IMG/VR virus record: IMGVR_UViG_3300025093_000034 | Location: 1-48,780 of that record | From: a virus | Direction: 5' to 3' (one strand) | Length of the DNA stretch: 48,780 nt | Shown here: positions 19,031 to 19,938 of the stretch, piece by piece | Numbering within the stretch: the stretch's first letter is position 1 | Layout: the number at the start of each line of letters is the position of its first letter | Translations under genes and position numbers: made by a program | The notes under the pieces: generated by a model | The model's database searches: none | Seen by the model: the letters and a program-made list of their open reading frames with translations, nothing else | Told to the model about the DNA's origin: nothing

Positions 19031-19938
19031 AAAATAAAGAGTGCCTCAGATGGGATGTAAGTTTTGCTTGGATTAGAAAAAGGAACATCCTATATCTATC
19101 AGCACTCTCATAGGTTAATTTGTTGAAGTATCCATAAAGACCAGAACACAGGCGACCAGTACATATTGCCTTGTTGTGTTGTCAAACTTTATAGACCCCC
19201 AACTCTCTGTTTAATTGTTTAAACAGGAACTGGTATTTTGGTTTTAATTAAAGACGGAAAGTAATGCTGCTATTGTAAATGAATAGGAACTTTCTATGTC
19301 TTATTACAGCTGGTTACTACACGCTGTCTGTGCCAGCAGCTTACTGGATAGGATAGATTCACGAGTTTATAGTCAGAACAATCTCCAAACAACCTGACTT
19401 AGCGAAGCAATTACTTATACATTGAGGTGCATTTATTGCACCACAAATATATAAAAGTAAAATGAGGACTTGCCTATGCTAGGTACACAGGACTTTGTTT
19501 AATTTTAATAATGAGTTTTGTTTATGCTCTAAACAAAATCTTATAAACAAGAGTATAACAATATCCTACATTGCTATTAGACCGCTGTGTCTTCTTGTTT
19601 CATACTGAATTCCACCTCAGTCAGCTGTATTCTCCTAAGTGGAATCTTATGGAGGAGAATAGATGAAAATAGTTTAAATTAAACTCACATAGCTTCATCA
19701 CTACTATATGTAAAATACCTGATTTTAAAGTCTGCACTAACTTTGGATTCATATCACTGCAAATGATATGTTAGCACTATACTCTCTTTGCAGGAGAAGT
19801 ATAGAACCCAATAGAAGCCCCACAGGTTTGTCACTGTTTGCTAACAGTAAAGAATACCCTCATAAGAGAGTATTTGTCAAGGTTTATTTTAGACACTGCA
19901 CTCAGACAGGTACTTGACGGAAGGTATAACATTACACC
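19031..19938 (-). ncRNA. Candidate large structured non-coding RNA, about 900 nt
   Basis: No ORF above 60 codons exists here on either strand, yet perfect helices are dense: 19207-19226 (8 bp, 4-nt loop), 19371-376/394-399, 19426-19442 (6 bp), 19516-19538 (9 bp), 19750-19770 (7 bp), 19777-783/798-804, 19833-19848 (6 bp) and 19853-19874. An H-type pseudoknot is possible: 19609-615 with 639-645 (7 bp) interleaved with 19628-636 and 653-661 (9 bp). The low-coordinate end is a long helix, 19038-19058 with 19085-19108, followed on the minus strand by TTATTTTTT, a terminator. Several mismatches become G-U pairs on the minus strand, which favours that strand overall. The size and phage setting recall ornate RNAs such as GOLLD or ROOL. 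The 5' end is uncertain: it may be processed from the transcript of the 80-aa gene. Confidence 0.75.

Follow-up and report, generated by a model that had tools for sequence, protein, structure and literature searches.

What kind of RNA, if any, is encoded by a gene-free stretch of about 900 nt in a phage genome? The question is raised by positions 19031-19938, minus strand, of the IMG/VR record IMGVR_UViG_3300025093_000034, whose 48,780 nt constitute the stretch of DNA analyzed here (the window). An earlier note had proposed a single large ornate non-coding RNA at this place, belonging to GOLLD, ROOL or a new class of that sort. The lack of an ORF on which that proposal relied was borne out: none of 60 aa or more lies within 19007-19938, and the longest ones in the stretch have 49 aa (plus strand) and 43 aa (minus strand). 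The closest relative differs from the stretch by indels of 108, 69, 1, 2, 6, 381, 1, 1, and 3 nt, lengths that fit poorly with a conserved reading frame. For the minus strand, a folding energy of -244.9 kcal/mol was calculated, compared with -206.4 ± 5.2 kcal/mol for shuffled sequences (z -7.4; 0 of 20 shuffles as low). The block would form a spacer/leader between an 80-aa ORF directly upstream (19939-20181, minus) and a 613-aa gene directly downstream (17165-19006, minus). The 613-aa protein lacks a Pfam or PHROG match; homologues are encoded in the related contigs L001 (89% identity) and L216 (34%), and RNA modules precede both genes.

The source phage is assigned to the Crassvirales on account of its major capsid and portal matches, as 43828-45447 encodes a 539-aa Crassvirus major capsid protein (PF23898, 100.6 bits) and a 920-aa protein is a portal (phrog_6547, E 5.6e-93) most similar to that of the cyanophage Leptolyngbya phage Lbo-JY46 and then to those of crAss-like phages. 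The window also contains a tRNA-Arg (UCU) at 9297-9371, and the same tRNA is located ~2 kb downstream of the RNA modules in L137, L151, and L166. A second strongly folding intergenic stretch (21208-21512; z -5.8 on the minus strand and -4.8 on the plus strand) is found near the boundary of minus- and plus-strand genes.

Neither ROOL (RF03087) nor GOLLD (RF01998) was matched in an Rfam search of the window up to E 5, although the earlier note had named both as possible classes; a hatchet ribozyme, which had been overlooked, was returned instead (RF02678, 19854-19717 minus, 86.7 bits against a curated cut-off of 51, E 3.4e-18). Besides the hatchet nothing convincing was obtained in the window up to E 5, and no further ribozyme was found toward the 3′ terminus of the RNA; group I and group II introns were likewise without a match. 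The orientation of the ribozyme sets the strand as minus, in agreement with the earlier proposal. The predicted hatchet (19717-19854) begins the RNA on its 5′ side, with a putative cut between C19852 and U19851, that is, with C at position -1, and with a P0 hairpin (19853-19874; 9-bp stem in the local fold) directly 5′ of the cut. Such a P0 was reported for ~90% of hatchets (PMC4604424). In the close relative L001/L012 the hatchet is 100% identical over 19717-19852, and the P0 loop is enlarged by 108 nt, with the pairing of the two stem sides preserved (UACUCUCA/UGAGAGUA). P4 consists of two hairpins with complementary 7-nt loops, CUGCAAA and UUUGCAG (19793-19787 with 19763-19757), and six of the seven loop pairs are invariant in 23 sequences, hence these loops may possibly contact each other. 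Upstream of the ribozyme a hairpin GUCAAG...CUUGAC (19876-19918, minus; local fold) marks the 5′ border of the conserved block. The resemblance to L013 sets in at 19918, which corrects the beginning of the conserved unit to approximately that position.

The ribozyme is followed on its 3′ side by a domain of ~250 nt, D2 (19470-19716, minus), that is absent from Rfam and comprises helices P5 and P6, a site for exchangeable arms at ~19670, a pseudoknot formed by S1 and S2, and P9-P12. Pattern scans detected D2 in ~25 IMG/VR contigs and this type of hatchet in ~24, and the two are conserved as a unit in ~25 loci. In an alignment of 25 loci (23 distinct sequences) 95.1% of the cells of the named hatchet and D2 structure are paired and the ribozyme core is invariant. 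Changes on both sides were recorded in 14 pairs and 47 cells, compared with 6.4 and 11.9 in shuffles (0/500), and partners slid out of register pair in at most 41% of cells. Kinship of the sequences inflates the both-sided counts, and more weight is therefore given to the slid partners and to independent subgroups, such as L254-L260 in P10 and P11, than to the comparison with shuffles. Compensatory changes were observed in S1, S2, P9, P10, and P11. The interleaved pseudoknot (19609-19661, minus) is present exactly where it had been described, with S1 of 9 bp (19661-19653/19636-19628) and S2 of 7 bp (19645-19639/19615-19609); among the 23 distinct homologues, 99-100% of the cells of each helix remain paired, and each shows compensatory changes. 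All the features named in the earlier note, hairpins included, were found at their positions, and the covariation analysis that it had suggested as a check detected compensatory changes in the named helices.

The 3′ half is organized as a chain of smaller modules. A linker hairpin GGUGCA/UGCACC (19426-19442, minus) is located close to the place, near 19418, where L001/L012 carries 381 extra nt. It is followed by a putative second pseudoknot (19351-19400, minus) that combines AGUCAG/CUGACU with AGAUU/AAUCU. The fold of this region in isolation does not exceed the chance level (z 0.36), as a pseudoknot is beyond what nested folding can depict, and the evidence that argues for it is covariation: in 9 loci 100% of the cells are paired, compensatory changes occur in both helices, and slid partners pair in at most 44%. 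Next comes an invariant hairpin, UAUCCAGUAAGCUGCUGGC (19332-19350, minus). The pattern UAUCCAGUAAGYURCUGGC was detected in 85 viral contigs, with ~1 expected by our own estimate from the size of the collection; in bacterial and archaeal genomes there were 6 matches, approximately the number expected by chance, in unrelated contexts and with no flanking modules. Among relatives, this hairpin is flanked by at least three alternative covarying stem/pseudoknot modules. In most relatives a different stem takes the place of the second pseudoknot; across its 39 distinct sequences 96.6% of the cells are paired and 84 are changed on both sides, whereas slid partners pair in no more than 42%. Many UAUCCAG-module loci have no recognized ribozyme. 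The UAUCCAG motif was also seen in a 177-kb phage contig, L165 (4344-4763 and 4880-4898), ~120 nt upstream of a divergent tmRNA.

Toward the 613-aa gene, the RNA continues with an exchangeable hairpin ACAGC/GCUGU (19305-19329, minus), which is the same in L137 and is replaced by at least six alternative hairpins in relatives. Then follow the stem modules AAGAC..GAAAGU/ACUUUC..GUCUU (19250-19305, minus) and CUGUUUA/UAAACAG (19190-19247, minus). L216 contains two copies of the former, with stem ends GAGAC/GUCUC and AAAGC/GCUUU, as well as a counterpart of the latter, CUAUUUA/UAAAUAG, which precedes the AAGAC-type module, the reverse of the order in the window. The terminal helix with its T-tract could be confirmed (19029-19107, minus; 19107-19102/19044-19039 followed by a U-rich tract at 19038-19029), and its U-tract side is identical in L001/L012. 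A scan with the pattern TGGTCGCCTGTGTT gave essentially noise beyond L001/L012. The start codon of the 613-aa gene lies 21-30 nt away from the U-tract, which may therefore serve as an AU-rich leader for translation instead of terminating transcription; alternatively, the U-tract could be a true terminator, which would make the RNA free-standing.

The relatives, most of which come from assembled metagenomes, indicate how these parts are arranged. Querying annotated phage genomes at the nucleotide level with the complete RNA gave no match. The entire RNA is present in L001/L012 (95.6% identity), where it is enlarged by insertions of 108, 69, and 381 nt, and the longest of these holds two small ORFs (59 and 53 aa; L001 1121-1470, between D2 and the second pseudoknot). 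The 53-aa ORF recurs in many related contigs, among them L137, where it lies between D2 and the UAUCCAG module. Elsewhere, in crAss-like phages of gut and environmental origin, the modules occur apart and in other orders, often with small ORFs between them and mostly directly ahead of small genes. No conserved ORF, which the earlier note had named as evidence against an RNA, was encountered, as the ORFs of the relatives fall between the modules and not within them. L216 shares the hatchet, D2 and the downstream gene family (34% identity), indicating that shuffling occurred at the same locus. At the site in D2 different hairpin arms are found in relatives, and the ORFs that follow D2 differ between loci. 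In 12 of 15 distinct loci no more than 60 nt separate the end of D2 from a sense ATG ORF, which holds for 11% of random positions. In the window, D2 is followed by other modules without an ORF, and 460 nt separate it from the start of the 613-aa gene; in L013 the corresponding distance is 1181 nt. The separation of the modules in relatives and the location of D2 before start codons are more in keeping with portable leader elements than with a single ornate RNA of fixed layout, and the window and L013 would be cases in which the modules became contiguous.

Based on this evidence, the locus is probably a hatchet-processed, modular leader RNA, a composite array of the RAGATH type and not one ornate RNA. 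The proposal is founded on the match to the hatchet model, the covariation and shuffling of the modules, and the position of D2 before start codons in relatives. Weighing against it are the modules that take the place of an ORF after D2 in the window, the deviations of the hatchet from the Rfam consensus, the metagenomic origin of most homologues, the many UAUCCAG-module loci with no recognized ribozyme, and the U-tract, should it be a true terminator. According to this model, the minus-strand genes would be transcribed together and the hatchet, once folded, would cleave the transcript that contains it between C19852 and U19851. This would leave the upstream mRNA ending in the P0 hairpin with a 2′,3′-cyclic phosphate, and the downstream RNA would begin with a 5′-hydroxyl inside a compact ribozyme-D2 fold. 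Both new ends would be poor substrates for nucleases, and the downstream RNA would gain a defined leader of its own. We infer that cleavage takes place in infected cells, that it protects the ends and that the leader controls translation or stability of the downstream gene.

A free-standing, trans-acting large RNA of ~820 nt, comparable to ROOL or GOLLD, is a tentative alternative with an appreciable minority chance; here hatchet cleavage would produce the 5′ end, and the RNA would stop after the terminal helix with its U-tract. The ORF-free stretch with its z of -7.4, the identity in L001/L012 of the U-tract after a GC-containing helix, and the tRNA gene in the window are all in line with it, as are the RNA of L013, which spans more than 1 kb of modules with a terminator-like hairpin and no ORF, and the higher identity to L001 of the 3′ half (97.6%) than of the 613-aa gene (93.5%). 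Against it, no ROOL or GOLLD model is matched, D2 usually adjoins a start codon, the modules of relatives separate, reorder and enclose ORFs, and no conserved long-range pairing between modules was found. It is doubtful, though conceivable, that the locus represents an undescribed mosaic class of large RNAs in Crassvirales, in which interchangeable modules function as one RNA despite their varying order and the ends are set by ribozymes, with a hatchet on the 5′ side, a pistol on the 3′ side in some loci and both in L146.

That different ORFs follow the same D2, that different arms occupy the same D2 site and that the order of modules varies would also be expected if the modules were mainly recombination handles or selfish cassettes, the shared hatchet, D2, and UAUCCAG sequences being the sites through which phages exchange small genes and the arms of D2 and other hairpins in homologous recombination. 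This is improbable, since compensatory changes keep the pairing and the ribozyme core is invariant, neither of which recombination alone needs; moreover, there is no recombinase or mobile-element gene next to the RNA of the window, where the 613-aa neighbor has no family match. Lastly, a leader controlled by a ligand or protein (riboswitch or attenuator), with the helix and U-tract as a switchable terminator for the 613-aa gene, would suit the position directly upstream of a gene, the pseudoknots, and the terminal helix with its U-tract, but is highly improbable given that no Rfam riboswitch is matched in the window and that the genes found downstream of these modules are unrelated, whereas a metabolite riboswitch would go with a single pathway.

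Hatchet and pistol ribozymes have been found in metagenomes without a clear biological job. In the 2015 hatchet study none was located in completely sequenced organisms (PMC4604424). Here, hatchets are linked to named Crassvirales genomes. Six of the first 14 hatchet-pattern matches (L003, L005, L006, L008, L009, and L015) were dropped, as they lack the other ribozyme half and resemble coding DNA; a genuine hatchet among these first matches is L007 (cr115_1). Annotated gut Crassvirales with hatchets include cr115_1, cr53_1, cr125_1, cr114_1, cr4_1, and cr6_1, and several of these ribozymes sit inside noncoding stretches of ~0.9-1.6 kb. Nearby are RAGATH-6 (below the cut-off), RAGATH-7, -9, and -14, a hammerhead (below the cut-off), a weak twister-P1 match, and tRNA-Leu or tmRNA. 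The gut crAss-like arrays L248-L252 (NC_055898, NC_055889, NC_055900, NC_055897, and NC_055893) hold hatchet, RAGATH, hammerhead and weak twister matches together with tRNA-Leu, and share a conserved, unlisted element ending in ...CUUCCAGUUUGUACC. The presence of hatchets in named genomes and the repeated arrangement of a hatchet, a conserved folded leader, and a start codon make it testable whether phages cut their mRNAs to obtain protected ends and separate leaders. In addition, the shuffling of at least six covarying modules represents recombination at the level of RNA domains, and several RNA families that Rfam 15 lacks are supplied.

Compared with known systems, the ribozyme resembles RF02678 in its model match of 86.7 bits, conserved core, P0 hairpin, and C at -1, but differs in having two hairpins with complementary loops in the place of P4, in its fusion to D2, and in the P1 loop and one 3′ core base, which depart from the Rfam consensus. 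Pistol (RF02679) is absent from the window but follows the same UAUCCAG module, at a distance of 0.9-1.3 kb, in L146 (11815-12947), L167 (157-1498), and L211 (1127-2111); in L146 a hatchet just under the cut-off (48.5 bits) and the pistol lie on one strand ~1.1 kb apart. A further module of the relatives, absent from the window and from Rfam (50 instances; L137, L148, L154, L180, L216, and others), is composed of UAAUGCACC, a hairpin with the loop UUCCCAAGG, a variable arm, and GAGUGCAGAGGG; the two sides of its long stem (CAGUUGUAAUA/UAUUACAACUG) vary in a complementary manner. It could possibly be a new ribozyme or a leader element. This module (T) contains twister-like strings, UCCCAAG and GAGGG preceded by UAAUGC, but in a different strand order, so that the likeness is a lead only; no twister model of Rfam was matched up to E 3.

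Similar size, pseudoknots, phage origin, and unknown function are shared with ROOL and GOLLD, for which a multimeric RNA cage is a criterion. The RNA of the window differs from them in being composite, predicted to be processed by a ribozyme, without a model match, and made of modules that are also found separately. From the earlier reading, a large structured phage RNA whose named helices show compensatory changes stands, membership in GOLLD or ROOL does not, and a single ornate class is weakened. RAGATH RNAs owe their name to the genes near twister and hammerhead ribozymes with which they are associated (PMC11061315). Like them, the modules are structured RNAs beside hatchet, hammerhead, and twister-like elements in phage-type loci, and annotated gut crAss-like genomes place RAGATH-6, -7, -9, and -14 next to hatchets. 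They are, however, chained and shuffled here, and the described RAGATH models match neither the window (up to E 5) nor L138/L154. The locus appears to work like the source loci of RAGATH RNAs, yet does not belong to any described RAGATH family. Based on its ribozyme-rich setting in Crassvirales, with a hatchet in the window and pistol, hammerhead, and RAGATH elements in related loci, it is filed here as a RAGATH-type array with new modules.
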